Positions 11,743-32,700 of a stretch of DNA of 58,290 bases are shown piece by piece; the first letter of the stretch is position 1, and every line of letters begins with the position of its first letter. The notes below the pieces were generated by a model. The model saw only the letters and a program-made list of their open reading frames with translations. It did no database searches and was not told the DNA's origin. The stretch is from Elainella sp. Prado103 (GTDB lineage Bacteria; Cyanobacteriota; Cyanobacteriia; Elainellales; Elainellaceae): positions 1 to 58,290 of the forward strand of contig JALOOM010000048.1 of assembly GCA_025454395.1 (NCBI GenBank), written 5' to 3'. The position numbers and the translations under genes are program-made.

Positions 11743-13191
11743 ATGACTGCTGTGCCTGCCCCTCGACAGCCCTCCCAACCCTCTGATTTTCCTGGTGCCA
11801 ACAACTCGTCACCAGACATTACGCCTGTGTTTGCGTTGAAGGAGCTGGTCTCGCGACTGCATCGAGAGCAGAATAAAATTCAAGATTTGCTCAGCTCCTT
11901 GGGGTTTGCCCTCCGCAGTTTCAAAAATTTGAATCAATTTCTAGAATTGACCCCACTGATTGCCAGTCGTGTCACAGATGCGGATGGGGGGGCTTTGGTG
12001 CTCTTTAAGCCCAATGGTCAGATGCGGCTAGAGCGACTGCATTGCCAAGATAATAGTTGCCAAGACATTCGAGTGGCGATCGAGACAGCAACTCGGCAAC
12101 TGACTGCGGCTGGAACGGGCATTCCGCCCTATGGCAAAATGGTGCCCCAGTTCAACAGTAATCGCACTGCGGCCCTGGATTATCATGTCAACGCTACCCT
12201 CGGTGCTTCGGTGCAGTTGTTTGGCACTGCCATTCTGACCAAGAATGTAGAACGCGGTCGGCTGTATGTATTCAGTCGCGATCCCGAATATACCTGGACA
12301 GAAACTCGCCAAAAGCTGGTGCGGCTGGTGGCCGATCAAACCGCAGTGGCGATCGAGAACGATGAACTCACAGTTGAACTACGCAAGAAAGAAAGGCTGG
12401 ATCGCGAGTTAGAAATTGGAGCCGAAATCCAGCTCCAGTTGTTGCCCCGCCAATGTCCCAACATCGAAGGAGTCGCGTTAGCGGCCCAGTGCAAAACAGC
12501 CAACCGGGTAGGGGGCGACTATTACGATTTCATTCCCGCCAACTATGATCAATTTCGCAAAAAGCCCGGTGCAACTGATCCCGGTAAGTGGAGCTTGGCG
12601 ATCGGCGATGTCATGGGCAAAGGTGTCCCAGCCGGACTGATTATGACCATGCTGCGGGGCATGTTACGGGCGGAAGTGCTGAACGCCCATTCTCCCTCAC
12701 GCATCTTGCAGCATCTCAACCATGTCATGTATGCCGATTTAGAAAACTCCAATCGGTTTGTCACCCTGTTTTACTCAGAATATGATGCTAAAACCCGCAC
12801 CTTGTCTTATAGCAATGCGGCCCACAACCCCCCCCTCCTGTGGCAGGCCGCAACCGGCACACTGAAACGGCTTGACACCCTGGGAATGCTGATTGGACTG
12901 GATATGGATAGCAAATATCATGAGGCGCAGGTACAACTCCAGCCCGGTGATACGATCATGTACTATACCGATGGCTTTACGGATGCCGCCAATCAGAGTG
13001 GTGAGCGGTTTGACGAAGAGAATTTAGCGCGTCATTTCCAATGGGCTTGTCAGCATTGTCAACATCCGCAGGCCATCCTGGAATACCTGTTTAGTCAAGT
13101 CCAAAAGTTTATTGGCTCGGATCGCCACAACGAGGATGACATGACCCTAATTGTGATGCAGATTAAGCCTGAGCCAGCAGAACTCAGCTAG
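11743..13191 (+). CDS. GAF-SpoIIE/PP2C serine phosphatase (RsbU/IcfG-like)
   Basis: 482 residues. A short N-terminal helix leads into a GAF-like sensor domain (about 50-210), then a PPM/SpoIIE-type phosphatase (about 225-475). Metal-binding motifs are visible: NRVGGDYYDF, AIGDVMGKGVPAG and the final DDMTLIVMQ. Such proteins dephosphorylate anti-anti-sigma-type partners in partner-switching signalling; the cyanobacterial relatives include IcfG and Slr2031-type regulators. The partner kinase and antagonist are not in this window. The gene reads toward the small protein gene and argH, so read-through is possible. Confidence 0.87.
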   Translation: MTAVPAPRQPSQPSDFPGANNSSPDITPVFALKELVSRLHREQNKIQDLLSSLGFALRSFKNLNQFLELTPLIASRVTDADGGALVLFKPNGQMRLERLHCQDNSCQDIRVAIETATRQLTAAGTGIPPYGKMVPQFNSNRTAALDYHVNATLGASVQLFGTAILTKNVERGRLYVFSRDPEYTWTETRQKLVRLVADQTAVAIENDELTVELRKKERLDRELEIGAEIQLQLLPRQCPNIEGVALAAQCKTANRVGGDYYDFIPANYDQFRKKPGATDPGKWSLAIGDVMGKGVPAGLIMTMLRGMLRAEVLNAHSPSRILQHLNHVMYADLENSNRFVTLFYSEYDAKTRTLSYSNAAHNPPLLWQAATGTLKRLDTLGMLIGLDMDSKYHEAQVQLQPGDTIMYYTDGFTDAANQSGERFDEENLARHFQWACQHCQHPQAILEYLFSQVQKFIGSDRHNEDDMTLIVMQIKPEPAELS

Positions 13192-15492: not shown

Positions 15493-15762
15493 ATGATGAC
15501 CCAGGAACTTGATCGAGAAACCGAGCGCTATCTAGCTGACATTCTCCAACAACAGCAGATGACGACTGATGAATTGATCCGCCAACTGATTCACGATCGA
15601 TGGTTGATGTTACAGCAAGTTCCCACCTCGCCTGAGCGCCATGCTGAGTTGGAGTCTGAATTAGCGCTGGCGACTCCTAAGCCTAGAAATCAAAAACAGC
15701 CTAGAAATCAAAAACAGGTGATTGCCGATTTTGTCAGACGCAAACATCAGCGAGTGGTGTAA
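15493..15762 (+). CDS. Small hypothetical protein, possibly antitoxin-like
   Basis: 89 residues. The first 40 (DRETERYLADILQQQQMTTD and onward) look like two helices separated by a turn, similar in feel to ribbon-helix-helix or antitoxin-type N-termini, but this is weak. The C-terminus is basic (VRRKHQRVV). An 18-bp duplication (15684-15701, 15702-15719) encodes PRNQKQ twice. No toxin-like gene follows directly. There is no strong ribosome site before the ATGATG at 15493. A good terminator lies about 190 bp downstream. Confidence 0.45.
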   Translation: MMTQELDRETERYLADILQQQQMTTDELIRQLIHDRWLMLQQVPTSPERHAELESELALATPKPRNQKQPRNQKQVIADFVRRKHQRVV

Positions 15763-15835
15763 ACAGGGTCAGATTTTAGGGTCAGATTTTGAAGAGTTAG
15801 ACTGCGATCGAATTATTGAAATTCCCCCATCGGTA

Positions 15836-15926
15836 TCACTGTATATCGGTATCGCTGTATATCGGTATCGCTGTATATCGGTACCACTGTATATCGGTAC
15901 CACTGTATATCAGTATCACCGTATCA
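15836..15926 (+). repeat. 16-bp tandem repeat before a terminator
   Basis: Five copies of a unit like tcactgtatatcggta (15836, 15852, 15868, 15884, 15900) and a decaying sixth. The first bases vary tcact/tcgct/ccact in blocks, suggesting separate duplication steps. The array lies between the end of the small gene and its terminator, so it would be in the 3' untranslated RNA. Confidence 0.88.
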
Positions 15927-15954
15927 TGAGCTTCTTTCAGACCCGAAAGAATGA

Positions 15955-15981
15955 GCAGGCCTTAGCGGCCTGCTTTTTTTA
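15955..15981 (+). terminator. Rho-independent terminator
   Basis: GCAGGCC (15955-15961), a five-base loop, GGCCTGC (15967-15973) and seven T's. The T-run is only on the plus strand, so it ends transcription coming from 15493 or from argH. Confidence 0.88.
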
Positions 15982-15996
15982 GAACGAGTGTGAAAC

Positions 15997-16443
15997 CTAG
16001 CTCCAACCGCCGACTCGAATTCCGGCTCCCAAAGCTACAAATAGCACCGCCAAAGTTGTCACACCCAAAATGTGATAGGCCAAGCGATTCAGCGTTTCCT
16101 TGGTTAAATTAGGAATGATAAAAAAGCGAGCATGAATCGCCAGCGCTAAGGTGCCCAGTAGCAACAGTAATTTGATACCGATGTAAGTCGAGAGATAGGA
16201 ATCGAACGCTAGAAAATTTTGGAAGCCAGGGAAATAGATCCAGGTAAGCCATAAGCCAGTGATCACTTGCAGCGCCAAAGCCGCCAGTCCAAATCCTTCA
16301 AAATGTTCCTCAAACTGATGAATTCGATCAGGATCACGATTTTTCAGCGCTTGAGGTAAAACCGTAACCGCTAGCACCAGATGGCCACCTGTCCAGACTG
16401 TCGCCCCCAGGGTATGCAAAAAAATGAGGAGTTTGAATAGCAT
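15997..16443 (-). CDS. CopD-like integral membrane protein
   Basis: 148 residues with four predicted membrane helices (about 5-25, 50-70, 83-103, 122-142). The N-terminal HTLGATVWTGGHL pattern, with two conserved His in or near helix 1, is like the CopD/DUF2269-type membrane proteins linked to copper resistance or haem binding. Function here is inferred only from this resemblance. It is alone on the minus strand, with a repeat-rich promoter region. Confidence 0.65.
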   Translation of the reverse strand: MLFKLLIFLHTLGATVWTGGHLVLAVTVLPQALKNRDPDRIHQFEEHFEGFGLAALALQVITGLWLTWIYFPGFQNFLAFDSYLSTYIGIKLLLLLGTLALAIHARFFIIPNLTKETLNRLAYHILGVTTLAVLFVALGAGIRVGGWS

Positions 16444-16505
16444 AAGGTCACCTGCGTTGAAAAAGGGTTTGAACTCAGAAAAGTGATGTGATCACGGGCG
16501 ATCGA

Positions 16506-16557
16506 TTCAGCGTATTGGTTCAGCGTATTGGTTCAGCGTATTGGTTCAGCATATTAG
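16506..16557. repeat. 13-bp tandem repeat
   Basis: ttcagcgtattgg at 16506, 16519 and 16532, with a fourth variant ttcagcatattag at 16545; weaker relatives follow. Confidence 0.88.
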
Positions 16558-16620
16558 TTTAGCGATTAGTCTAACGCTCAGTTCAACCATCAATCCAGTC
16601 GGCGATTAGTCCAGCAATCT

Positions 16621-16690
16621 GGCAGTCAGTAATCCGGCAGTCAGTAATCTGGCAGTCAGTAATCTGGCAGTCAGCGATCCGGCAGTCAGA
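16621..16690. repeat. 15-bp tandem repeat
   Basis: ggcagtcagtaatcc-type units at 16621, 16636, 16651 and 16666 and a truncated fifth at 16681. Confidence 0.88.
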
Positions 16691-16954
16691 AGCAAGCGTA
16701 AATTGAGCAACCCTAGAGCGAACTGGAAGCCTGTACTACGGAAGATCGATACATTGATGCCGAAGGCTACTAACGATCAGTCCGTTCAGTTCTTCGAGCA
16801 AGCATGTCAGGATTTGTTAATTTATCCAGAAAAGCTGATCTCTCTCGGCCGTATTTTGTAAAAATGAATACAGAAATTATTTGATTTATTCCTCACTCCC
16901 AAAACTGAGGAGCGATCGGTTCAAACGTCATAGATTTGAGTACGGAGAACAGGT

Positions 16955-17224
16955 ATGTCCCTTCAAATAGCTGATTGGGTTGATTCACAAGTTGATTCAC
17001 CTGCCTTAGATTTATCCGATCTAGAAACAGCGATCACATCAGGTTGGTCTCCTGTTTGTCATATTACCTATACCCGTGACACCTGGGTTAAGCTATTGCA
17101 CTCGCCAAGTCAATATGCTTTAGACGAAGCCAAGCTGCTGTGTCAAGCTGCTCCTGATACCTGGATCGCCTGGGTGCCAGATTATGGTGAGATCTGGCTG
17201 GATAAAAGTCATTTTTACTGCTAA
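16955..17224 (+). CDS. Hypothetical protein
   Basis: 89 residues with a GGAGAACAGG ribosome site before the ATG at 16955. Acidic N-terminal half (DLSDLETAITSG) and an aromatic-rich C-terminus (WIAWVPDYGEIWLD). Not recognised. It is followed 125 bp later by another small same-strand frame of similar character. Confidence 0.5.
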   Translation: MSLQIADWVDSQVDSPALDLSDLETAITSGWSPVCHITYTRDTWVKLLHSPSQYALDEAKLLCQAAPDTWIAWVPDYGEIWLDKSHFYC

Positions 17225-17349
17225 AGGCATGGTAGGCAGAATGACAACTAGCTGAATATGGTTGCTCCAATCGAGCATCAATACAACTGAATATAAATCC
17301 AAAAATCGCTGTGAAATGCAACTGTTGATCATCCAGACAGATTAATGCA

Positions 17350-17595
17350 ATGAACAGAGAATTAGTCATTGATTGGGATGAAATGTTTGAGTATCTACCA
17401 GGTACAATTGTAGAACTCAAAGCCAGACCGGGAAGTCGCGATCGAATTGCATCTTATGAAGCAATGATCGTGCCTCCCATCTGGCTCGTTAATGATCCCT
17501 GTCCGCGCTATCCTCATGAGCTGTGGATCATATCGCGTCAAGAAGTCAAAGTTTGTGATGTCGAGTTTCAGCCTGGGGTAGTCCAGACTTGCTAG
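17350..17595 (+). CDS. Hypothetical protein
   Basis: 81 residues; contains IDWDEMFEYLPGTIVELKA and PHELWIISRQEVKVCDVEF, which look like genuine beta-rich protein sequence rather than chance translation. No ribosome site is obvious before 17350. No family recognised. Confidence 0.45.
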   Translation: MNRELVIDWDEMFEYLPGTIVELKARPGSRDRIASYEAMIVPPIWLVNDPCPRYPHELWIISRQEVKVCDVEFQPGVVQTC

Positions 17596-17666
17596 GTGAA
17601 CTCATGAACGGGTGCGGCACATCTTGTTCAGCGAGCACTTTCAGTAAGCATTACTTTGACGGACGT

Positions 17667-17696
17667 AAGAAGGACGACCCCACAGTCATCCTTCTT
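17667..17696. terminator. Possible terminator hairpin between convergent genes
   Basis: AAGAAGGA (17667-17674) pairs perfectly with TCCTTCTT (17689-17696) around a 14-base loop. The plus-strand flank is moderately T-rich. It lies between the small plus-strand frame and the end of the nitrite-channel gene. Confidence 0.45.
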
Positions 17697-17808
17697 GTTG
17701 TACATCTTTTCTTGCTGAGCATCTCTTCTTGCTAAGAGTCTCAGTATCCCTCAAATTTCAGGTGTTCTGTATCGATCGGAGGACATCACCGGAAGATCAG
17801 TGAGCAGG

Positions 17809-18678
17809 CTAGCCACCATTAGCCAGTGGGCTGCTTTTAGGGAACGGAGTGGATAGACCGTTGCCCTGATGCGTGACGCTTAGATCTTCCGGGATGGGCT
17901 TTGGGCGGCGAATATTGCTGGCAACATACCAGTAGGCAGCTCCCACAAACAGACCACCTCCAATCAAATTGCCTAACGTGACCGGAATCAGGTTATGCAT
18001 AAATCCTAACCAGGAAATCGTGTCTGGATGGGGTAGCAATAAGCCGATTCCCAGCAAAGTCATGTTGGCAACACTATGTTCGAATCCGGCTCCAATAAAG
18101 GCAAATAGGCACCAGAAGATCAAGATCAATTTAGCCGTATCATCTTGCAGCTTCAAGGCCAACCAGACTGCTAAACACACTAGGATATTGCAGAGAATAC
18201 CCCGAAAGAGTAACTCACTAAATGAGGCGTTAATTTTACTAGCAGCGACCTGTAAAACAAAATCACTAATAGGAGACTTTGCTGCCAAGCCAGATTGGAT
18301 CACAATTACTGCCAAGAGCAACGAACCGACCAAGTTACCGATCCAAGAAACGATCCAGATCCGCAGGGTGTTGAACCAGGAAACGCGCTGGCTGAGACTA
18401 CCGATCGTCATCACCAGGTTATTTCCCGTAAACAGTTCTGATCCAGCAAAGATTACCAACGACAGAGCCACTCCAAAGGAAGCTCCCATTAATGCTTTAG
18501 TGCCTGCCTCATGCGCCGCATTCAACGGTGCACCGATCGCAAAAATTAAAACAATGCCAAATCCTACATACATCCCTGCCAACATTGCCAAAACAAAATA
18601 GCGAGAGAGACTGGCATTCAATAACTCCACCTTAGACTTTGCCAGTTCAGCAATCTTATCAACGGTTGTTTCCAACAT
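17809..18678 (-). CDS. Formate/nitrite transporter family channel (NirC/FocA-like)
   Basis: 289 residues with about six membrane helices. The sequence around GASFGVALSLVIFAGSELFTGNN and the later HSVANMTLLGIGLL has the family's conserved features. Members are pentameric channels for formate, nitrite or similar anions. Placement 80 bp downstream of nirK on the same strand favours nitrite as the substrate (inference). The ATG at 18678 has GAGGAAG eight bases upstream. The last 45 residues are a hydrophilic tail. Confidence 0.85.
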   Translation of the reverse strand: MLETTVDKIAELAKSKVELLNASLSRYFVLAMLAGMYVGFGIVLIFAIGAPLNAAHEAGTKALMGASFGVALSLVIFAGSELFTGNNLVMTIGSLSQRVSWFNTLRIWIVSWIGNLVGSLLLAVIVIQSGLAAKSPISDFVLQVAASKINASFSELLFRGILCNILVCLAVWLALKLQDDTAKLILIFWCLFAFIGAGFEHSVANMTLLGIGLLLPHPDTISWLGFMHNLIPVTLGNLIGGGLFVGAAYWYVASNIRRPKPIPEDLSVTHQGNGLSTPFPKSSPLANGG

Positions 18679-18699
18679 ACATATTCTTCCTCTATTGCT

Positions 18700-18743
18700 T
18701 TGAGTACCTTTGCCTTGAGTACCTTTGCCTTGAGTCTCTTGCC
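18700..18743. repeat. 15-bp tandem repeat between nirK and the channel gene
   Basis: ttgagtacctttgcc at 18700-18714 and 18715-18729, plus a partial third copy. It fills the 80-bp spacer, so it would lie inside a nirK-channel transcript. Confidence 0.8.
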
Positions 18744-18758
18744 AAACTTTGCCTCAGC

Positions 18759-20318
18759 TTAGGTGCGAGGCTGTAGAGACGACAAGTTAGGAGCCGGTAT
18801 TTTGGGAGTTGCTTTTGTGGCGATCGCGGCATTATGGATGCCTTGATGATAAATTTCAGCATGTTCTGCACCTTCCACAACTAAGGTGCCAATTAATCCT
18901 TTCTCTAGCCGAGATAGGGCATGATCTACCAGCAAGAAATTGCCAGGTACATCAAGTGTCATTTCCACCATCGTGGCTCCTCCAGGTGGTACTGTAGTCG
19001 TCTGCACATCCGTCAGCGGCGGACTGGTGAGAGAGGCTTGTTCATAGACCCGATCCATAATTTCTCCAATTACATGGAACGACGAAGTATAGTTCGGGCC
19101 GCCCACCCCAAAATAGATCCGGATCGTTTCCCCGACTTTTGCCTGCAGAGGATGGTCTTTTTTCAGCGTTGCTTCCGCGCCATTAAACACAAAATATTCC
19201 GGCGCTTCACTGAGTAGTTTTTCTACGCTAAATTCGAGATTGCCCCGATTGCCGTGGGGTTCGACTGTATAGATCTCACCCTGCATCACATAGAACTCGC
19301 GATCGACCGGCGGTAGTCCCCCTTCCGGCTCCACCAGAATCATGCCATACATGCCGTTGGAGATATGGTGAGCCACCATCGGTGTTGCACAATGGTAAAC
19401 AAATAAACCCGGATTCATCGCCTTAAAGGTAAATACCTTTTCTTCCCCTGGAGAAGCCTGAGTCATCACTGCGCCGCCCCCTGGCCCCGTCACCGCATGA
19501 AAGTCCACCGAGTGAATCATCCGGCTAGTTTTATGATTTTTGAGATGAACTTCAACCGTATCTCCCACACGCACTCGTAGCATCGGGCCAGGAACTTTAT
19601 GATTAAAAGTCCAGTAGTTGTAGGTCGTATTGTCAGCTAATCGCCCTCGTTCTTCCACCGTTTCAAGATCGAGTCGGAGCAATTTAGTCGGGCGTTGGCC
19701 GATCGGTTTAGGCACATTAGTCGGCAGTTGGGCGATATCAACGGTTTTGATAGTATCTTCATCCACCTTCGCCGTAGTTTGCCCTTCCACAACCAGTTTG
19801 CCGATCATCCCTGCCTGCACATGGCCCGGGATCGAACAGAAATAGTCAAAAACCCCTTCCTTATCGGCGCGGAAGACAATGACTGAGCTAGAGCCCTGTC
19901 CCACCACCTTATCGGACTGAGTATTAAACTCAGGAACCGTGATATCGTGTTCAGCTCCATCCCCATCAATCAATGTAATCTGGACAACCTCTCCAACCTT
20001 CACTTTGAGATCGGGGTTGACTTGATGGTTAATTTTGCCCCCCACCCCTGCAAAGATCAGTTTGCCTTCGCCAATATCAGTACGAAGTTTAAATCGAACA
20101 TCAGGCTGCACAGAATGAATATTAGCCGAGAAAGCCAACGGTGTACGAAAAGGAAAGACGAGGAAGGCACACAGCAATACTATTGTGACTAAACATTGCA
20201 CCAGCCTGATCATCCCTGGTGGATGCTTGATCCATGGACATTTCGCCCTCAACCATCTTGCCCTCAACCATCTCGCCCTCAGCCATTTCGCCCTCAACCA
20301 CTGCCAGAGTTTCATCAT
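18759..20318 (-). CDS. nirK: Copper nitrite reductase NirK with an extra N-terminal cupredoxin domain
   Basis: 519 residues from the ATG at 20318, with GGAG seven bases upstream. NirK reduces nitrite to nitric oxide. After a basic N-terminus made of WLRAR/WLRAK repeats there is one signal/anchor helix (LVQCLVTIVLLCAFLVF). A first cupredoxin domain (about 70-170) has its own type 1 copper set (EHDITVP, DYFCSIPGHVQAGM). The catalytic two-domain NirK follows: HSVDFHA gives a type 1 His, the catalytic Asp and a type 2 His; FVYHCATPMVAHHISNGMYG gives type 2 His and type 1 Cys, His and Met; SFHVIGE holds the catalytic His and VDHALSR the last type 2 His. All ligands are present. A similar N-terminal cupredoxin fusion is known in Hyphomicrobium NirK. 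The gene follows the RIC gene after only 22 bp. Confidence 0.93.
   Translation of the reverse strand: MMKLWQWLRAKWLRARWLRARWLRAKCPWIKHPPGMIRLVQCLVTIVLLCAFLVFPFRTPLAFSANIHSVQPDVRFKLRTDIGEGKLIFAGVGGKINHQVNPDLKVKVGEVVQITLIDGDGAEHDITVPEFNTQSDKVVGQGSSSVIVFRADKEGVFDYFCSIPGHVQAGMIGKLVVEGQTTAKVDEDTIKTVDIAQLPTNVPKPIGQRPTKLLRLDLETVEERGRLADNTTYNYWTFNHKVPGPMLRVRVGDTVEVHLKNHKTSRMIHSVDFHAVTGPGGGAVMTQASPGEEKVFTFKAMNPGLFVYHCATPMVAHHISNGMYGMILVEPEGGLPPVDREFYVMQGEIYTVEPHGNRGNLEFSVEKLLSEAPEYFVFNGAEATLKKDHPLQAKVGETIRIYFGVGGPNYTSSFHVIGEIMDRVYEQASLTSPPLTDVQTTTVPPGGATMVEMTLDVPGNFLLVDHALSRLEKGLIGTLVVEGAEHAEIYHQGIHNAAIATKATPKIPAPNLSSLQPRT
20239..20298 (-). repeat. In-frame 15-bp tandem repeat in nirK
   Basis: Four units like catttcgccctcaac (20239, 20254, 20269, 20284), read on the minus strand as repeats of Leu-Arg-Ala-(Lys/Arg)-Trp. 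They lengthen the positively charged region before the signal helix. Confidence 0.9.
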
Positions 20319-20340
20319 CCCAATATCTCCTTGAGCAAAG

Positions 20341-21063
20341 CTAGATTGAGGCAGCTTTAACCTGTTCGAGCGCGATCGCTCTGGGGAACAGCACATTGTT
20401 TTCTTTATGAACATGCTGATGCATATCCAACTCAAAAGCCTGCATAGCATCCAACAGGGCACGATAGGTATTGCAAGCCCAGTCCGGCGGCGTATAGTCA
20501 TCCGTCAACTGTCGCAGTTGAACCAGATCGGCTCCTGCCTCATCATGCTCAAATTCCATCCGACCGATCGGATTGGACAGATTACCACAATAGAAAACCG
20601 GCAGGGTTGAGCTGGACTCTAGCTGACGGATCATCGGAAACAACACCTGCTCTTCCTTCATCAGGTGCGTAGCCAATTCCTGTGATAAAGCCAGAAAAAT
20701 ATCTCTAATCTGCATCAGCCGAGGTTCTTTGTCACCATGCACTGCTGCCACCTTGGTCACCATTTTTTCCAACCGTGGCAGTTCACGATGCAGATAAGCA
20801 TGGTGCAAACGTTCAATGTGATCCGCCAGTTCACTCAGCGATAGAGCTGCTAGATTCACCTCAGGCAGAGCTGCCGTTACCGCAAAGTCTTCTAACTGAG
20901 CCAGAAATGTCTGTGGATCGATCCCCCGTTGGCGACAGGCTGCTTCTAGCGTTTGTTGGCCACCACAACAGTAGTCTACATGGGCTTGTTCAAATAGCCG
21001 GGATAGGGCTGGATAATCACGGACGATCGAACCAACGGTATCGTTCATTGCAAAGGTTGTCAT
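20341..21063 (-). CDS. Iron-sulfur cluster repair di-iron protein (RIC/YtfE/ScdA)
   Basis: 240 residues from the ATG at 21063 (MTTFAMNDTVG), which has AAGGA about eight bases upstream; the longer frame to 21177 adds unconserved residues. The N-terminal ScdA-type domain has DYCCGGQQTLEAAC, and the C-terminal hemerythrin-like domain has the spaced His and Glu ligands (HHAYLHRELP, HLMKEEQVLFP, EFEHDEAG, HQHVHKENNVLFP). Such proteins restore iron-sulfur centres damaged by nitric oxide. Location directly upstream of nirK agrees with a role in coping with NO made by that enzyme. Confidence 0.92.
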   Translation of the reverse strand: MTTFAMNDTVGSIVRDYPALSRLFEQAHVDYCCGGQQTLEAACRQRGIDPQTFLAQLEDFAVTAALPEVNLAALSLSELADHIERLHHAYLHRELPRLEKMVTKVAAVHGDKEPRLMQIRDIFLALSQELATHLMKEEQVLFPMIRQLESSSTLPVFYCGNLSNPIGRMEFEHDEAGADLVQLRQLTDDYTPPDWACNTYRALLDAMQAFELDMHQHVHKENNVLFPRAIALEQVKAASI

Positions 21064-21350
21064 GACATATTCCTTCAATGCGTGAATGGTTGAAGTGTGT
21101 ATTGTTGGGGCAAGGATCTTTGGGGAATCTTTGGGGATGTTTGCCCGCCCCAAGCAGTAACCGGCATTATTCCCCACTTTAAATTGACTGGCAGTTTAAG
21201 ACCATCCGAGGAAAGACTGCCTCATTTCGAGCCATTGCGATGGCAAATCTATTGATTCAGCACATCTTTCTTGTGTTGGGGGGCAGCAGCAATCGCTGCC
21301 ACTTCTGAGCGTAGAGCTTCAGAAACTCCCATATCCTTTAGGGTTTCCAG

Positions 21351-23663
21351 TTAACCCACGGAAGATTCAGTCAACGAGGGTTCCGATGGCTGAGATTGCG
21401 TCGGCTGGTGGAAAATGGCCACCACCGATCGACCCACACAATACACCAGCATTAGCGCTCCCACGGTAAAGATAATGTCGCCCGGAATCCGGAGCCACAC
21501 CGTCCATTGCATCCAGGCAGAACCAATCACTTCCGCACTACGGGCATACCAAGTGCCATGATTGACCGACTGCACCAGTTGATAAAAGCCGTTAGGAATC
21601 AAGCCAAACACCATCATCACCACCAATCCAGCATTAATCCACCAGAAGGCGAAGTTGAGGTTTTTTTCATCCCAAGCGCGATCGGGCGTAATTTCCCGGA
21701 GGGCAAACAGCATCAGTGCGATCGCCAGCGAACCGTACACGCCATACAGCGCAGAATGGGCGTGAATGGGCGTGGTGTTAATGCCTTGAGAATAGTAGAG
21801 CACGATCGGCGGATTAATCAAAAAGCCAAACACACCAGCCCCGACCAAGTTCCAGAAACAGGTCGCAATAAAGAACTTGAGCGGCATCCGATAGAATCCT
21901 TGTGCCTCTTGAGAAAGCTTGAGCGATTTCACTACTTCAAAGCCGATCAGAGTCAAAGGAACCACCTCCAGAGCAGAGGCCACCGAACCCATTGCGGTGA
22001 TGAACACGGGAGTGCCAGTGAAATAGAGGTGATGCAGCGTACCGATCACACCACTGCCGAGATAGAGAATGGTAGTGATATAGGTTGCACGCAAAGCAGA
22101 AGAACGCTTAAGGAATCCTAATTCGCTACAGAGATAGGCGATCGCCACCGTCGCAAATACTTCAAAGAACCCTTCTACCCACAGATGTACCACCCACCAG
22201 CGCCAATACTCTGCCACACTTAAAGGGGTATGGTTGGTGTACATTAAGCCGGAAGCATAAAACAACGGAATTGTAATGGCGCTATAGAGAAAGAAATGAT
22301 TCAGCCCGGTTTTACTACCTTCCGCCTTCAGAGCCGGTTTTAGGGCCCGGAACATCAACCAGAGCCAGAACACCATGCCGCCGATCAGTAGCAACTGCCA
22401 GAGTCGTCCCAGCTCTACATATTCGTAGCCTTGATGACCCAACCAAAAGCTCTTGTCACCGAGATAACCCTGAACTCCAGCCCAAGCACCCACCAGAGAA
22501 CCCACCACCACGAGGGTCAACGCGATCAACAATCCGCCATTTCCCCAAGCTTGAAATTTGGGTTCATGCTTGCCAAAACGAGGCCCGAAATATAGTCCGG
22601 CGGCGAGCCAGCAAGTAGCGATCCAGAAAACAGCAAGCTGTAAATGCCAGGTACGCGAGGCCGCGTAGGGTAAATAGCTTTGAATGGGCACCCCATAAAA
22701 ACCATCCCCCTCAACCGCATAGTGGGCTGTCACCATCCCCATCAAAATTTGCACAAAGAACAGCGCCATGGCCACGCCAAAAAATAGGCTAGTCACCTTT
22801 TGACTGGGGGTCGCTAGCCGAATTGCTGGACGAGCGGTCACAGACTGCACCTCTTCAGCATCTTCCTGGGTTAAATACACAAACAGAAATAGGGCAATGG
22901 CCGCGATTAGGACGATTACAGAAACGATCGACCAAATCAGGAACTGAGCAGGAGCCTGATTGCCAATCAGATCATCATGGGGAAAGTTAGCCGTATAAGA
23001 AAAGGGTGCATTGGGACGATTGGCAGATGCAGTCCAAGCAGTCCAGGTGAAGAAAGCGGTCACATCCCGAATTTCAGTTGGTTCGGTAAACCAGCCGCTG
23101 GGAATCGAGTGGATCGCCGAACCGCGAGACAATAAAGTCTGATAGTCGGCAAACACTTGCTGTAGCCCCTGAGTTTGGGCAGTCGTCAATAGCAGCACCC
23201 CAGTCTCTGGATCGTAGCGGTTGGTTTTAAATTCCCGCTGCACTCTCACCTGTAAAGCCGCTCGATCGACCTCAGGCAGTGCTTCCCAATCGGACTGCTC
23301 AAAGTTGGGATCGCTGTTATATAGCACCCCAGCAGTTGCCAGTCCCCAACGGTGCAGCACATCTGCTGTCCAGTCGGGAGCCAAATAGCTGCCATGTCCC
23401 CAAATACTGCCAATATGCTGTCCCCCTCGCGCCAGATAGGTTTCCTGTCCGGCTTGAATGTTCGCTTGGGTCAAGATCACTTCTTGCTGCGGCGATACAA
23501 CCGTTGCTGGAATGGGCGGTGCATTTTTATAAATGGCTGCACCGGCCGAAATTAAAACGGTGAAGGTGACAATACAAATCAGCACTAGCCAGGCTGGTAG
23601 CCCAATCACTCGCCGAGTGCGCGATCGGGCAGTCATCGCGATATCAAAGGTTGGATTCGCCAT
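21351..23663 (-). CDS. norB: Quinol-type nitric oxide reductase
   Basis: 770 residues, the length of the single-subunit quinol-dependent NorB (qNOR). It reduces two NO to N2O using quinol electrons. After one N-terminal helix there is a large outer domain (about 50-240, GGQHIGSIWGHGSYLAPDW), the cytochrome-c-like extension without a haem motif; then a haem-copper-oxidase-like bundle of about 12 further helices. Conserved His-rich segments are present (AHYAVEG, VVHLWVEGFFEVFATV with the non-haem iron His and Glu, LHHLYFTGTP, IHAHSALYG). A homologue is known in Synechocystis 6803 (sll0450). Here it lies 287 bp upstream of the RIC-nirK-channel run, same strand. Confidence 0.94.
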   Translation of the reverse strand: MANPTFDIAMTARSRTRRVIGLPAWLVLICIVTFTVLISAGAAIYKNAPPIPATVVSPQQEVILTQANIQAGQETYLARGGQHIGSIWGHGSYLAPDWTADVLHRWGLATAGVLYNSDPNFEQSDWEALPEVDRAALQVRVQREFKTNRYDPETGVLLLTTAQTQGLQQVFADYQTLLSRGSAIHSIPSGWFTEPTEIRDVTAFFTWTAWTASANRPNAPFSYTANFPHDDLIGNQAPAQFLIWSIVSVIVLIAAIALFLFVYLTQEDAEEVQSVTARPAIRLATPSQKVTSLFFGVAMALFFVQILMGMVTAHYAVEGDGFYGVPIQSYLPYAASRTWHLQLAVFWIATCWLAAGLYFGPRFGKHEPKFQAWGNGGLLIALTLVVVGSLVGAWAGVQGYLGDKSFWLGHQGYEYVELGRLWQLLLIGGMVFWLWLMFRALKPALKAEGSKTGLNHFFLYSAITIPLFYASGLMYTNHTPLSVAEYWRWWVVHLWVEGFFEVFATVAIAYLCSELGFLKRSSALRATYITTILYLGSGVIGTLHHLYFTGTPVFITAMGSVASALEVVPLTLIGFEVVKSLKLSQEAQGFYRMPLKFFIATCFWNLVGAGVFGFLINPPIVLYYSQGINTTPIHAHSALYGVYGSLAIALMLFALREITPDRAWDEKNLNFAFWWINAGLVVMMVFGLIPNGFYQLVQSVNHGTWYARSAEVIGSAWMQWTVWLRIPGDIIFTVGALMLVYCVGRSVVAIFHQPTQSQPSEPSLTESSVG

Positions 23664-24133
23664 AATTGTCGGTCTAGCGTGGAAATAACATCAAGATCAA
23701 GAACATCGAAATAGATGAGAAAGAGAGCGGGCAGAAGGACGACAAGAGACATACTGTTTGTAAACATCTGTAAGGTTCAATCAAACAGAGCCTGCCGCAT
23801 CCCTTCGACTCATCAACGCTTTCCAGCGTAAGCGAACCATCTGAGAAACTCTTTGACTTAAGTCAAAATGAACCTTGAGAGATTCTTAATTTCGAGAGCT
23901 GTTTTAACTCTTATAAAGAAAGAAATATTTTCATGTTGAAAATACACAATGAATCAATTCTTTAAACAATTACTGAATCGCCAGTCAATCGTTAGAGTAG
24001 TAAGAAAAGTGCAGGAGGCAGAGGTTCTCTGATCGGGCAGATGGCGATAGAATTTCTCTAAAATCGGCGAATATGGGTTTCCAAAATATACTTCAACGGA
24101 ATCTAAAATTAATACAGTAGATAACGCTAATGG
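23664..24133. other. Divergent promoter region of norB and the Crp/Fnr gene
   Basis: About 470 bp. Apart from the palindrome at 23853-23866 it is AT-rich, with no gene. Long leaders are implied for both genes. Confidence 0.5.
23853..23866. promoter_or_regulatory. Perfect Fnr/Dnr-type palindrome
   Basis: TTGACTTAAGTCAA is a perfect 14-bp palindrome of the TTGAy-N4-rTCAA class bound by Fnr, Dnr and NnrR regulators. It lies between divergent norB and the Crp/Fnr gene. On the minus strand a TACGCT hexamer at 23830-23825 would place the palindrome centre about 41 bases before transcription start of norB, the usual class II distance. A T-rich TTAATT at 23886-23891 offers the same on the plus strand. 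Confidence 0.7.
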
Positions 24134-24874
24134 ATGGCTATGATGAATGAATCTAATATGAGTGATTGGTTGCAAACCACCCTGATTTTTGCAGGGCTTT
24201 CTCGACCCCAGCTCGTGTCTGTCCTGCAAATTGCCCAGTTACAGATCTTTCGTAAAGGTGAGCTGCTATTTAAACAGGGAGAAGTAGCCACGGGCTTTTT
24301 TATCGTTAAATCTGGGCGAGTCAAGGTATTTAAAGTCTCTCCAACGGGTAAAGAGCAGATTCTCAACATTTTTGAAACTGGCGAAAACTTTGCTGAGGTA
24401 GCAGCGCTTGATGGCAAACCATTTCCAGCCGCCGCCGCCACGCTGGAACCATCAGAGCTGATTTTCCTCCCCCGCATGGCTACTCTCGATCTACTCCGGC
24501 ATTATCCTGATATTTCTATTAACATGCTGATCAGTTTGTCAAAACATTTGCGCCATTTAACTGGTGTGATTGAAGACTTATCTTTCAGAGATGTACCACA
24601 GCGTTTAGCAACTTATCTGTTGCGGTTGAGTCGATCGAGTATCAGAGAGAGCAACGATCGCACTACCGCAAATCCGATCGTCACTTTGGATTTAACCAAA
24701 AGTCAACTTGCTGCCGCCCTAGGTACAATCCCTGCAACTCTTTCCCGTGCTTTTTATTACCTCAGCAATGAAGGATTAATTGCAGTGAATGGCTCCCAAA
24801 TTGAGTTATTAGATTGGGACAGGTTGCAACGCTTAGGACAATCCCTGGAAGAACATTCAAATACTTTTCCATGA
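24134..24874 (+). CDS. Crp/Fnr-family regulator, probable NO/denitrification regulator
   Basis: 246 residues: an N-terminal cyclic-nucleotide-type beta-barrel (about 20-135), a long dimer helix (ISINMLISLSKHLRHLTGVI) and a C-terminal winged helix (about 195-225) with LTKSQLAAALGTIPATLSRAF. There is no cysteine anywhere, so it cannot be an iron-sulfur Fnr; a haem-type or other NO sensor of the Dnr/NnrR kind is more likely by context. In Fnr the recognition helix reads E-x-x-S-R; here the acidic position is Ala (PATLSR). It is divergent from norB and faces mnmD. Several ATGs lie close together at the start (24134, 24140, 24143); I keep the first. Confidence 0.85.
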   Translation: MAMMNESNMSDWLQTTLIFAGLSRPQLVSVLQIAQLQIFRKGELLFKQGEVATGFFIVKSGRVKVFKVSPTGKEQILNIFETGENFAEVAALDGKPFPAAAATLEPSELIFLPRMATLDLLRHYPDISINMLISLSKHLRHLTGVIEDLSFRDVPQRLATYLLRLSRSSIRESNDRTTANPIVTLDLTKSQLAAALGTIPATLSRAFYYLSNEGLIAVNGSQIELLDWDRLQRLGQSLEEHSNTFP

Positions 24875-24910
24875 ATTTATTGATTGATCCATCGGTGCAA
24901 TGATCTGAGG

Positions 24911-26738: not shown

Positions 26739-26797
26739 CTAACTAATTGGCTAACTAATTGGCCAACTAATTGGCTAACCAATTGGCTAATTATTGG
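26739..26797. repeat. 12-bp tandem repeat reaching the cheA stop codon
   Basis: ctaactaattgg at 26739 and 26751, variants at 26763 and 26775, and a shorter copy from 26787 that contains the cheA stop codon (26787-26789) and its last codons. Confidence 0.87.
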
Positions 26798-29700
26798 CTT
26801 CCGGAACCATCACTTCTCCCTTCAACATGCGTTGAGCGGCATCCAGTAGCACTTCTTCCAAATAAGGCTTGGTAAAGTAGCCTTTAGCTCCCAGTTGCAC
26901 AGCCATCTGCCGGTGGCGATCGGCTCCTCTAGAAGTCAGCATGGCGATGGGGACTCTATTCAGATGGGGATCTTTCTGGATGCGAGAAAGGAGTTCTAAC
27001 CCGTCCATCCTTGGCATTTCGATGTCACAGAAGACTAAGTCACAGGGCAGTCCAGACCGCAATTTTTCCCAGGCTTCCTGTCCATCTCGCGCCTGTTCAA
27101 CCCGATATCCAACTTTACTGAAGGTCATCGATAGGAGTTCTCGTACCGTGATGGAGTCATCCACAATCAGTACGGTTGGTTCGGTTGCAGCCAGAGGTTC
27201 AGGCGGCAATTGATCCCCTTTATCCCATAGAGAAGCAGTTGGATCGCGGCGAATCCGACCTTGCCAGAGGTCAATCAACTCCAACACATCAGCGATCGGC
27301 ATAATCCGCCCATCTCCTAATACCGTTGCCCCAGCGACCCCAACCGGCTTGGGAGCGGGCCCTTCCAGTTGCTTGATGACAATCTCCTGTTCGCCCAAGA
27401 CCTGATCCACCTGAAGCGCCAGGAAATTACCTGCACTGCGCAACACCACGATCGAAATCATGTCCTCTTCCTGATTTCCACCGTAAACACTGCCTCGTCC
27501 CAACAGGCGGTTGTAGCGTAACAGCTCAGACAGCGGTTGGAAGGGCAGCAAAATATCACGCCAATGAATACAGGTGCGGCCCTGCTCATCGGTCTGAATC
27601 CGCTCTTTCGGCACATCTAACATATCCTCTACCCCATCCATCGGGAAGGCGATCCGAGCCCGATTGCTGATGCAGCAGAGTGCTTTTGAAATACTGAGAG
27701 TTAGCGGGAGCCGAATGGTAAAGGTGGTGCCTTTGCCAATGGTTGAGTCAATATTGATTGTGCCACGAATTTCATTCAGGTTGCTCCGCACAACATCCAG
27801 CCCAACGCCCCGCCCCCGCAAATCATCCACCTGATCTACAGTACTGAATCCATGGTGGAACAGTAAATCATAAACATCGAGGCGAGACAGATGCTGAGCT
27901 TGCTCCCGGGTGAACAGGCCTTTTTCCAGTGCCTTAGACTTGACGCGCTCTGGATCAATTCCAGCGCCATCATCACTCACAGAAATCACAGTCTGGTTGC
28001 CTTGGTGGAAAGCACGAATGGTAATACGACCGGCAGGAGCCTTACCAGCGGCAATTCGTTCTTCTGGAGTCTCAATTCCATGGGCGATCGCATTATTTAC
28101 CAAATGAGTCATCGGATCGTACAGCATCTCAACAATCATTTTGTCGATCAGCGTATCCCGCCCTTCGATCGCCAATTCTGCCTGCTTCCCGTATTTAATA
28201 GAATTATCGCGTACTCCGCGCGGCAATCGATCCGCCGTTTGAGAGAAAGGCACCATGCGAGAGCGAGTCAGTCCTTCTTGCAACTGGGTCGTAATTTGCC
28301 GGAAGTTGCGCGTCACCTGATCCGTTTCTTCCACCACAAAATCGATGTCTGATGCCGATTCTCGTACTCGCACGATCAGTTCGATCATCTCCTGCGAAAG
28401 GGTATGGAAGCCGGTGAATCGATCCATCTCTAAGGCATCAAAACTCATCCCCGTAGAATGGCTGGTGGGTTCAGAGTTAAAGCTACTTGCAGTCGAGGAT
28501 AGAGATTGACCACGACGGTTGGAGAGCAGGGAACTTTCGAGCAGGGATCGCTCATATAGATCGCGCATCCGTTGTCCTACATCGCTTAGCTGCTGCACCT
28601 GATAAAGCAGATTGTCCAGGAATTGCCGCAATCGTTCTTGGGCCTGTTCCAAAGTATTCCGATTCACCACCATTTCCCCAACCAAGTTATTGAGATTGTC
28701 CAGGTGTTTCACCGAAACCCGCATGGTTTGGTCGGTCAAGTTTCCTCGTCGGTTGGTGCGACGTGTCGCTGCGGCTGCATTGCGGCTAGGAGAAGACCCC
28801 ACACCCAAGGCTTGATCGGCATCTTGAAGAAGCGCTTCTAAATCACCAAATTCATCGTCTACTACCGCCATTGAGGGTGGACTGACAAAAGGCAAAGTCG
28901 TCGCAACAACAGGAACGATCGGTTGCACGATTTCAGGTGTATCTTCGAGCAATGCTTCTAGGTCAGCAAAGTCATTGTCTGCTAAGTCTGCCTCATCTTC
29001 ATGAATTGCCGTCACAGAAACATCATCTGCTAGCACCGCTTCAAGATCATCAAAGGCAACCGGCTCTGCTGCATCCTGTTCAGAGAGTAATACATCCAGG
29101 TCATCCATTTCTGAACCATCTGCTGCTGTTGCATGTTCAGAGGCTAACAATAGCCCATCTAGATCATCCAAATCATCCAAAGCAGCGACAGAACTATCAT
29201 CGGGCAGGGATGGAAAATCAGAGGTTGACCAGTCCAAATCATCTAATTCGGCTTCTGGAATAATAGGCTCTAGCAGGTCTGTGGGTTGAATTTCTACTGC
29301 TTCTGGAGCCAAATTCATTAGTCCAAAATCTAGTGAGAGTTCTGTATTATCTGCATCATTATCTACATCAAAATTGCCTGCATCAAAATTGCCTGCACTA
29401 AAATCCTGATCCAGATCAACAGCATTATTTAGCCCAGCATTGAACTCAGTATTAAACTCAGAATCATCGAAAGCTAACTCAGCATGATCGAACTGACCAT
29501 CGAGACTAAATTCATTTAGCTCAGATTCATCATTCACATTAGTATTGGCGTTGACGTTATCGCCGAAGCCCTCGCCAACGTTGCCAATATCATCAAAGGA
29601 GATTTCCTCAGCATTGCTGAGATTGTCGATCGAGTCTTCATTCAGCTCGGAAAAATCTAGAGAACTATCAAACGTGAGTTCATCATTTATTCCAATCTGG

Positions 29701-32700
29701 GTCTCTGCAAAATTCAGCACATCTAACTCCGAATCACCAAGCTCCAAGGATTCGGAAGATGGCGTGGTTGCTTCAAAGCCGAGATTGTCAAGTTCCAACT
29801 CATCAAAACCCGATGTAGAACTCGTTTCAAAATTTAGATCACCTGCATCTAGATCACTTACTTCAGGCGAGTCAAAATCAAACGCTTCAGCCGGACTATC
29901 TGCACTACCAAAGTCTAAACTACCGAAATCATCCATCTCAAAGTTGAGATCGCCCAACTCTGGCTCCTCGGCATCAGGGCTTTCAGAGGGAACATTAGGA
30001 GTCTCAAAGTTCAGATCATCAAATCCAGACTCCCCGAAATCCAAACTCTCAGAGGAGGGAACATTAGGAGTCTCAAAGTTCAGATCATCAAATTCAGACT
30101 CCCCGAAATCCAAGCTCTCAGAGGCAGTGTCGGTTTCGAGATTGAGATCGCCTAACTCAGACTCACCAAAATTTAAAGACTCGGCGAAAGACTCCGAATC
30201 AGTTTCAAAACTGAATTCACCCAATGATGCCTCAGGTTCCATCGGTTCGAAATTAAGCTCACCCAGTTCAGGCTCACCCAGTTCAGAGGCAGCATCAGTC
30301 ACAAAATTGAATTCGCCTGACTCAGCAATCCCAAAATCGATCGACCCAGAGGCAATATCAGTGGATTCAAAGTTGAATTCACTTAATTCCACTGAGGACT
30401 CGGTAGATTCAAAATCAAATTCGCTATTCAGCTCACTATTCAGTTCAGCATCCAATTCACTATTTGACTCAGGATTGAGTTCGCTCAACTCAGATACATC
30501 AAAATTAAGGGCTTCAGCATCTGCCTCGAAATTGACAGCAGCTAATTCAGAGCCATCGATCCCTACAGATTCAGAACCTGAAGCAAAGCTTAAATCATCC
30601 AATGATGCTTCAAATTCAACCGCTTCAAAGTTCAGAGTGCCTGACTCCGAGCTAGCAAAATCTAGGGTCTCAGAGGGAGTGTCGAAATCTGCAAAATTGA
30701 GTTCACTGAGTGCTGTTTCAGAGTCACTAATTTCTTCAAATCCACTAATTTCTTCAAATCCACTAATTTCTTCAAATCCACTAATTTCTTCAAATCCATG
30801 AATCTCTTCAGGTGGATTGATTTCAAAGTTCAATGGCTCTAATTCCGATCGATCTGGCTCGATCGCCTCAGATGATCGATCAGCCGGTAAATCAGGGTTG
30901 TCAAAGCTGAGTTCATCCAGCCCAGAACCATCAAAGTCAAATTCACGATCAGATTCAACCTCAAGTTGATGCAATTCAGGAGAACCAAAATCGAAAGACT
31001 CAGATGAAATTTCCGTTGATTCAAAAATTAATTCACTGGATGCCACTTCAGATTCATGGGATGCAAAGCGAATCTGATCCAACCCAGAGCGATCGAGATC
31101 GAGCTCTTCCAAGGCAGGATCCATCGCTCCAAAGTCCAATTCATCCAAAGATTCAGTATTTTCAAAATTTTCAAAATTTAAATCGCCCAACTCAGACGAA
31201 GCTTCGGGTGTTTCAAGATTTAGCTCGTTCCACTCGGAACGAGCTAAATCATCAGCTTCTGTCTCTGCAAAACTCAGGTCACCCAGAGCATCTATCTCCG
31301 GATTAGCAGCATCCGAGAACCCAAAACTTTGAATATCAAAATCGGCTCCGTCATTCAGTTGCAAATCTGCATCAGGCAGTCCTGCATCCAAACCTGCATC
31401 CAAACCTGCATCAGCAGAGTCATTTGTACTGGTGGGAAGGTCACTGAGCTGATCAGCCAACTCAAACTCAGCAAGATCCACTGAATCAGAGAGAGCCGCA
31501 TCAGAGATCAGATTGGCTTCCTCCCCCGTCACTGCAAACGGATTGTTGTCATCGTCCAGCCGGTCATCATCTAGCCTGCCATCATCAAATAGGGTTTGTG
31601 CTGGATCAAGCTCCATGCTGAACGGATCGTCCGTCGTAAATTCTAGAAGGACTTCCTGATCTGGAGACTCGGTCTGCTCTTCAGCATCAGCGAACAAATT
31701 GAGGTCAAAATCAGATGAAGATGCGAGATCGGGAGTAACAGATCCGGACTCCAACTGGGCTAATTCACCTTCGGATTCTTCCAGATGAAATTCAGCCAGA
31801 TCAATCTGCGAAGTCGAACTCAGGTCTGTGAGGCTGAGATCGGCTGTCTCGTCATCTAGATTCCAGTTTGACTCATCCTCCAAAGATAAAGCATCCAGAT
31901 TGAGGGCATCCAGTTCCTCAATACTGCTACCCGATTCATCTGCCGGATGATCGCCAATCCCAGCCTCAGTCGCCCAATTGAAACCTGAATCATCACCTGG
32001 ATCAGGGATGGCAACCGAACTGTCAAAGGACTCACTCCCTTCTACCGCCAGCTCCCAATTGAAATCAGACGACGGCGGCTCCGGAGCCATGAGAAAATCA
32101 GGCAATTGCTCTGAGGAATCTGGCTCTGCCAGAAAATCCATCGGATCGGGTTCTGAGAAATCTGGCGGGGAGACTATCTCAAGATTTTCTGTTTCTAGCC
32201 AGGGATCAGCAACTGGGGGTAACTCTCTATTGTCCGACAGCAACTCTAGCTCCGCCGATCCAGGTTCACTCAATTCCCGCTCGATCGACTCTGCTGGGGC
32301 TGGGGCTCCGAACAAATCGAAGTCAGCCTCATCGGCGGGAGCGCTATCCTCGATTCCACCAGCGAGATCCAATTCGGTTAAGTCCTCTGGCAACTGCGGA
32401 GATAGATCCAACTCCAGCGCAGCATCGAACTCAGCCTCATCCAGCGCCAATGGATCCTCCAGGGAATTATCCAGCTCAAACTGACTGATGTTGGATGGCT
32501 CAAGCTGTATGGAGTCTAAATCTGAGAGGTCAAAATCGAGTGAAGGCTCCGGTTGCGAAGAGTCCGAAACCTCAAGTGAGGAATCAAAATCAAAGGTAAG
32601 TTCAGCTTCAGATGGGACAGATGAATCCGCCAACTCAAGATCGAAATTTAATTCTTCAGCATCGGATGCTGCGAACCAATCGCCCTCCGTTCCTTCTGAT

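Follow-up and report, generated by a model that had tools for sequence, protein, structure and literature searches.

Cyanobacterial loci that deal with nitric oxide (NO) have been described in parts. The Crp/Fnr-type regulator HcpR has been placed beside norB in Synechocystis (slr0449) and beside hcp in Anabaena variabilis, with a TTGACnnnnGTCAA site (Rodionov et al., PMC1274295), and a cluster of ric (norA) and norB in Thermosynechococcus TA-1 and CL-1 has been read as a protection against NO (PMC9403480). According to a review, the globins of Synechococcus and Synechocystis protect from NO, for which an NO dioxygenase function is argued, and neither NO nor nitrate nor nitrite apparently induces the Synechococcus GlbN (PMC3820574). 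For nitrite, marine cyanobacteria have NitM, a transporter of the FNT family whose uptake function has been tested (PMC4390861). The subject here is a locus of Elainella sp. Prado103 in which norB, ric, the copper nitrite reductase gene nirK and an FNT channel gene lie on one strand beside a divergent Crp/Fnr regulator. It occupies part of a 58,290-nucleotide stretch of DNA (the window), which is contig 15 (58 kb) of a 5.84-Mb genome assembled in 157 contigs and 99% complete. We consider it moderately probable that a laterally gained nirK has turned a cyanobacterial NO-defence operon into a partial denitrification unit, one that would take nitrite to nitrous oxide (N2O).

The original prediction, made from the letters of the window, had proposed these five genes as a nitrite-to-N2O cassette. 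All five are intact open reading frames (ORFs) at the positions it gave, and the gene identities and layout, with the FNT channel, nirK, ric and norB on the minus strand and the regulator divergent on the plus strand, agree with the Pfam and NCBIfam matches. An operator common to an hcp locus, a globin stub and a cupredoxin domain fused to NirK had gone unmentioned. In window coordinates the features are as follows.

17809 to 18678, minus strand: FNT channel, NirC-like, 289 residues (PF01226, 257 bits; TIGR00790 over its cut-off)
18759 to 20318, minus strand: nirK, a three-domain copper nitrite reductase of 519 residues with an N-terminal hydrophobic segment, a cupredoxin domain and a two-domain core (TIGR02376)
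20239 to 20300, minus strand: 15-bp tandem repeat of 4.1 copies in the nirK leader, translated as repeated WLRA(R/K) on the N-terminal side of the hydrophobic segment
20341 to 21063, minus strand: RIC, 240 residues from the likely ATG (TIGR03652 over its cut-off)
21249 to 21350, minus strand: truncated hemoglobin stub of about 31 codons and a stop, directly after the norB stop (77% over 31 residues)
21351 to 23663, minus strand: norB, quinol-type nitric oxide reductase, 770 residues (PF22085 and PF00115)
23853 to 23866, no strand: predicted HcpR operator TTGACTTAAGTCAA, a perfect palindrome and exact copy, between norB and the regulator gene
24134 to 24874, plus strand: HcpR-type Crp/Fnr regulator, 246 residues without cysteines, divergent from norB (PF00027 and PF13545)
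15763 to 24910, no strand: about 9.1 kb between a small ORF (15493 to 15762, after argH) and an MnmC2-like gene, in which lie the entire cassette, tandem repeats and a CopD-like gene

Judged by its parts, most of the cassette reads as an ordinary cyanobacterial NO-defence locus, made up of norB, an HcpR-type regulator gene, an exact TTGACTTAAGTCAA site and, often, ric. NorB scores 606 bits against a solved NO reductase subunit B (28pn) and 189 bits against PF22085, matches PF00115 too, and has no match to an NCBIfam model; the fusion of a cytochrome c-like domain (PF22085) to a heme-copper-oxidase-like core (PF00115) places it in the qNor class. RIC, scored on a longer ORF reaching 21177, exceeds the TIGR03652 cut-off (248.3 against 204.7 bits) and carries ScdA_N (PF04405) and hemerythrin (PF01814) domains; its start is most likely at 21063. 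NorB was found in 36 of the 388 genomes of the class, and 33 of the 35 other neighbourhoods, some of which end at contig ends, were compared with the window (G059 and G122 were left out). In a quick tree, from which five short rows were omitted and in which two outgroup rows are long, NorB falls inside the cyanobacterial NorB clade. The nearest locus is in G183, a genome of another family of the class (NorB 91%, RIC 78% and regulator 75% identical), and since the two other NorBs of the window's own order are only 77-78% identical, a transfer of the module from one cyanobacterium to another is possible. RIC is 57-78% identical to its counterparts in nine other cyanobacterial norB loci, and stands within 2 kb downstream of norB in eight of the 29 other loci that show more than 1.5 kb there. 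To say, as the original prediction did, that NorB alone is known is too narrow, since HcpR next to norB in Synechocystis (PMC1274295) and ric with norB in Thermosynechococcus TA-1 (PMC9403480) have both been published.

The operator ties this locus to a second one. The 5.84-Mb genome holds two exact copies of the palindrome TTGACTTAAGTCAA, one in the gap between norB and the regulator and one between hcp and a second, divergent HcpR-type Crp/Fnr gene (L038, 11752 to 14346; G000:C99), where hcp is over its family cut-off. The window regulator is 53% identical to this hcp-linked paralogue, which has two cysteines, and 52-75% identical to its counterparts at 12 further norB loci of cyanobacteria. 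Among the 31 other loci that show the norB start and more than 400 bp before it, 14 have a TTGACnnnnGTCAA site less than 600 bp upstream of norB: all 12 that hold an HcpR-like gene (identity 50% or more) against two of the 19 without one. In 11 of those 12 the HcpR-like gene is beside norB, and in L156 it lies about 5 kb away, beyond ric. The 461 kb compared hold 15 copies of the site, and all but one of these (14) are at norB. A search that tolerated two mismatches gave no enrichment (28 sites against 38 in a reversed control), so that only exact copies carry weight. A single-mismatch palindrome, TTGACTGAAGTCAA, lies in the overlap between the end of a FolC gene and that of a histidine kinase gene (L035, 1501 to 1514; G000:C16:32186) and is likely due to chance.

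The regulator gene, which lacks the FNR cysteines and is divergent from norB across a TTGACnnnnGTCAA site to which binding is predicted, accordingly has the make-up of an HcpR-type regulon. The sensing role that had been proposed for it is upheld in kind: the regulator appears to be of the nitrogen-oxide-responsive sort, because the exact palindrome is common only to the hcp locus in this genome and the operator matches the published HcpR site (PMC1274295). Regulation by nitrogen oxides is thus our best guess for norB; that ric, nirK and the channel gene share it we infer with more caution, since the gaps between them hold no clear second site. In a check of the HcpR1 recognition helix (Ser/Pro 180, Glu 181), by eye and in CRP numbering, the hcp-linked regulator reads PET and the norB-linked one PAT. 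Compared by eye across loci, 11 of 12 norB-locus regulators have Ala at the place where the hcp-linked one has Glu, and the twelfth has Ser, although the operator is the same.

Directly behind norB, and in the same direction, lies what is left of a globin gene. The stub is 77% identical over 31 residues (E 3e-11) to residues 94-124 of intact globins that adjoin norB elsewhere, and an intact relative matches PF01152; we take the globin to be of group 1 and glbN-like. An intact globin gene stands just behind norB in eight of the 33 other loci, in two of which (L153 and L167) it lies between norB and ric, so that the ancestral order was probably regulator, norB, globin, ric. The globin comparison took in the window plus two further stretches of this genome, and the loss therefore speaks of the norB locus alone. 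Loss of the globin and gain of nirK at one locus would fit a shift from NO removal to NO making and reduction.

The nirK product passes TIGR02376 with 338.2 bits against a cut-off of 296.3, scored on the longest ORF. Read from its first codon, at 20501, that ORF would overlap ric; ATG 20318, which has an AGGAG in front and lies 22 bp past the ric stop, is the more likely start. Over the aligned parts NirK is 61% identical to 6tfd and 60% to 2dv6 (Hyphomicrobium), and 65% to 6the, where the alignment takes in the core only. All nine copper and catalytic residues of the core are present (H269, C310, H318 and M323; H274, H309 and H466; D272; H415), and the N-terminal cupredoxin domain, matched by PF13473 and PF00127, keeps its four ligands (H124, C161, H166 and M171). 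For D272, H415, H318 and H166 a published counterpart is given below; the roles of the remaining core copper residues, and of H124, C161 and M171 as ligands, are presumably those of their aligned equivalents. Laccase-like two-domain oxidases have His instead of Asp at the AspCAT place. Asp stands there in the window NirK and in a second, distant NirK of the class (genome G094), and His in all eight of the other readable matches below the TIGR02376 cut-off, out of many, that were compared. The comparison took in ten loci, of which L004 is the G094 NirK and L018, read in a wrong frame, was dropped. This Asp, with the family score, rules out a laccase-like oxidase. Family score, copper ligands and extra cupredoxin domain together assign NirK to the N-terminal cupredoxin class, and nitrite reduction is predicted for it. 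The class is periplasmic, and the hydrophobic stretch at residues 39-55, behind the repeat-rich leader, makes export of NirK likely. D272, H415, H318 and H166 align with Asp225, His368, His271 and His122 as named for the Hyphomicrobium denitrificans enzyme (PMC7201279). In that enzyme the tethered copper lies about 24 angstroms from the core copper, a distance that makes an electron route through the cupredoxin debated (PMC7201279).

Such a gene is rare in this class. TIGR02376 has a match at E<=0.001 in 209 of the 388 class genomes, a single one of which passes the cut-off; a protein search of 36 genomes of the order returned NirK in the window's own genome, with no match in four genomes of the same genus. 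In the order of G082, 0 of 63 genomes gave a match at E<=1e-20, in a search of mostly the same genomes and without a positive control. No cyanobacterium is among the best 80 NirK matches of a scan from which the window's own genome may be missing. A NirK common in cyanobacteria is not supported for the genomes examined. The second, distant NirK, in G094 (L039, 6803 to 8660), scores 157 bits against TIGR02376, below the cut-off, and 214.6 bits against 3x1e, a chain named nitrite reductase and, we assume, that of Geobacillus. It belongs to the same class of organisms and has all nine core residues, but unlike the window NirK it is without the cupredoxin domain and adjoins an Rrf2-family gene rather than norB. 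Because a true distant NirK can thus score below the cut-off, one in 388 is a floor, and NirK looks rare in the class, not unique. The earlier description of a NirK set as uncommon in an oxygenic phototroph holds for the genomes examined, with G094 to be set against it. The window's genome itself appears to be cyanobacterial by its plastocyanin, which is over the family cut-off, its HIP1 octamers and the content of its class, in one genome of which a RuBisCO-like ORF was read by eye.

The best reading of these comparisons is that nirK was laterally gained from outside the cyanobacteria. Among the matches listed, the closest NirKs (64-68%) belong to Candidatus Fraserbacteria, Acetothermia, Chloroflexi and proteobacteria, and a quick tree puts the window NirK on a long branch beside a Chloroflexota/Bipolaricaulota set and a beta/gamma-proteobacterial set; the tree does not settle a donor, and we name none. 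In the same-genus genome G138 about 116 bp separate the MnmC2-like gene from the small ORF that follows argH, where the window has 9.1 kb, and in G118 argH and the MnmC2-like gene are near neighbours; neither genome has the cassette at the matching place, G220 is uninformative there, and G261 is without a match. Since gene order beyond the far side of the MnmC2-like gene also differs from the same-genus genome, more than one event may have occurred. The GC content of nirK is 0.496 against 0.489 for the window, which would make the gain not very recent, or the donor a genome of similar composition. Tandem repeats with periods of 16, 13 and 15 occupy 15829-15924, 16506-16564 and 16612-16689, between argH and the cassette, where G138 has its 116 bp or so. 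In the literature norB with its regulator and ric with norB are in print already; no report of a cyanobacterial NirK was recognised in a search that reached few subscription papers, and the string 'cyanobacteri' is absent from the main text of a survey of more than 250 NirK sequences (PMC4770552).

The FNT channel is the least sharply defined member of the cassette. It scores 243.7 bits against TIGR00790 (cut-off 232.3), and at E<=1e-20 FNT matches occur in 11 of the 388 class genomes, the window's included. Its nearest relatives (62-63% identical in one comparison, 57-62% in another) are in three genomes of one genus, just upstream of nirA, a gene that NF007125 names in one of them; a 55% relative comes from a plasmid record of Paenibacillus, where the annotations covering it are of an FNT and of nirD. 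The other matches in the class are more distant, at 31-34% in six genomes and 44% for a broken copy. The broken copy, at L199 in G371, has six stops in the matched stretch about 2 kb from a nirA-like gene, and we regard it as a decaying channel gene. Nitrite is the likely substrate, because close relatives adjoin genes for nitrite reductase (nirA in three genomes, nirD in Paenibacillus) and NitM takes up nitrite. That the channel feeds NirK by nitrite uptake, as had been suggested, is doubtful: NirK has a hydrophobic N-terminal segment and is of a class placed in the periplasm, and if exported it would need no uptake of nitrite from outside, nor would uptake supply it. The channel may instead export nitrite from the cytoplasm or serve assimilation.

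As for the set as a whole, none of the 33 other cyanobacterial norB loci has nirK or an FNT gene, although a few could hide one past a contig end (29 show more than 1.5 kb behind norB). Around 80 NirK loci elsewhere, several of which end early, NorB is matched in 21 (15 at 40% identity or more, six at 24-26%), RIC in one and FNT in none. A five-gene unit conserved elsewhere was thus not found in the loci examined, and the proposal of a long-standing unit is weakened, co-conservation having been set beforehand as its condition in the original prediction; the set looks like an assembly in one lineage.

Taken together, the favoured conversion of a defence operon would work as follows. Nitrite or NO would activate the HcpR-type regulator and so turn on norB, probably together with the genes that follow it. 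Exported by way of its hydrophobic leader, NirK would make NO from nitrite, either on the outer side of the cytoplasmic membrane or within the thylakoid lumen, with electrons from plastocyanin, which is over its family cut-off in this genome, or a similar carrier, perhaps through the fused cupredoxin domain. Membrane-bound NorB would reduce the NO to N2O with quinol, RIC would mend iron-sulfur clusters damaged by escaping NO, and the channel would pass nitrite across the membrane, perhaps releasing a surplus from nitrate assimilation. The core of norB, ric and regulator would be cyanobacterial and NirK of outside origin. As the original prediction also held, nosZ is wanting: no NosZ is over its cut-off genome-wide (best match 29.2 against 625 bits), so that the denitrification set is incomplete and N2O would be the end product. 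The mechanism follows from well-known enzymes; flux, channel direction, operon structure and use in light or dark we infer. More tentatively, and as a possibility that we would not call likely, the operon could have become a nitrite-respiring branch of the photosynthetic and respiratory chain, a globin able to turn NO back to nitrate with O2 lost and the NO-making NirK gained in its stead, with NorB fed by the plastoquinone pool and NirK by plastocyanin, and with N2O as the outlet of an electron valve for dark, anoxic or over-reduced cells.

Several observations weigh against the favoured reading. The set of five is found together nowhere else among the 33 norB and 80 NirK loci examined. The gaps of the cassette yielded no further good HcpR site, the best candidates having 6 or 7 of 10 half-site letters, and norB and ric lie 287 bp apart, nirK and the channel gene 80 bp; the extent of the operon is thus a matter of judgement, and nirK could have a promoter of its own. 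The place of His27, which captures or caps nitrite in Hd1NES1NiR (PMC7201279), is taken by Gln in NirK. The channel passes the general family cut-off only, scoring below the cut-offs of the NirC and FocA models (NF008595, the NirC equivalog, 212.7 against 293 bits), and its best solved relatives are chains named simply formate/nitrite transporter, with 254 bits where NirC has 182 bits. CGATCG is sparser in nirK than in the whole window (1.9 against 3.0 per kb), and the assembly is a draft of 157 contigs.

The strongest of the alternatives, which we think rather unlikely, is that the locus serves NO defence and nitrite relief, not respiration: NirK would remove toxic nitrite leaked from nitrate assimilation, and NorB, RIC and Hcp would clean up, with small flux and without useful energy. 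The core is indeed that of the known cyanobacterial NO-protection locus (PMC1274295; PMC9403480), and the genome has a nirA-like gene and the hcp locus with the same site; however, making NO is an odd answer to nitrite stress when NirA is present, and a quinol NorB with a NirK fused to its redox partner would suit electron-transport chains. Improbable in our view is a NirK that serves as an NO source for signalling, for instance to control biofilms or redox state, the dose being kept down by NorB and RIC. Although a regulator of the nitrogen-oxide-responsive kind adjoins the NirK unit and the stub tells of a globin able to destroy NO that is gone from the locus, none of the genes of the cassette was recognised as one for signalling, and the adjacent NorB would remove the signal. 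It is likewise quite improbable that nirK and the channel gene are silent, or driven by a promoter of their own for assimilatory nitrite handling unrelated to norB; the five-gene set is found nowhere else, a second clear operator is lacking, and relatives of the channel lie just upstream of nirA in three genomes, but ric and nirK are 22 bp apart on one strand, with the AGGAG between them, and the full set of catalytic residues is kept. Contamination or misassembly, for which the 157 contigs of the draft, the non-cyanobacterial relatives of NirK and the low CGATCG density of nirK might speak, the last being the sole point left to it, is rejected for its neighbours, composition and NorB identity as very improbable, since nirK has cyanobacterial genes on either side of it in a single 58-kb contig whose ORF 11743-13191, argH and MnmC2-like gene are 75-94% identical to those of same-genus G138, NorB is 91% identical to that of another genome of the class, and nirK has nearly the GC content of the window (0.496 against 0.489) and carries one HIP1 octamer, GCGATCGC.

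Elsewhere in the window, 26787 to 34871 on the minus strand encodes a protein of 2694 residues that by eye resembles a hybrid kinase of the CheA type and has a very long region of acidic repeats.

N2O is emitted by cyanobacterial blooms and mats, and the cyanobacteria themselves may make a share of it. A norB alone depends on NO from outside; with NirK at the same locus, N2O could be made from nitrite by the cyanobacterium itself. If the reading as a nitrite-fed electron valve were true, a cyanobacterium would be a direct source of this greenhouse gas, whose making from nitrite is unexpected in an oxygen-producing microbe. The locus also suggests the steps by which a defence operon might become a metabolic one: the globin lost, nirK gained behind ric, and the HcpR operator kept.

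Set beside the described systems, each part of the locus is of a known kind, and the combination, a three-domain NirK within an HcpR-norB-ric locus that has lost its globin, was not found elsewhere; what is unusual within the locus is nirK together with the NirC-like channel. The arrangements reported separately for Synechocystis (HcpR with norB) and Anabaena variabilis (HcpR with hcp) both occur within this one genome, and to those loci, in whose description no cyanobacterial nirK is named (PMC1274295), the window norB locus adds ric, nirK and the FNT gene. The Thermosynechococcus TA-1 and CL-1 cluster resembles the window in its RIC and quinol NorB; the section on it includes no nirK, nor does the word occur in the main text (PMC9403480), whereas the window has the gene. 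NitM is like the window channel in family and phylum (PMC4390861), and the window channel groups by identity with three genomes (62-63%), against 31-34% for six others and 44% for the broken copy. NirK resembles the copper nitrite reductase of Hyphomicrobium denitrificans (2dv6; also 6tfd, whose residue numbers match), which has the same domain order, 60-61% identity, and the same copper residues in core and cupredoxin domain. It differs in having His27 (Hd1NES1NiR) where the window NirK has Gln, and the host of the window NirK is an oxygenic phototroph.

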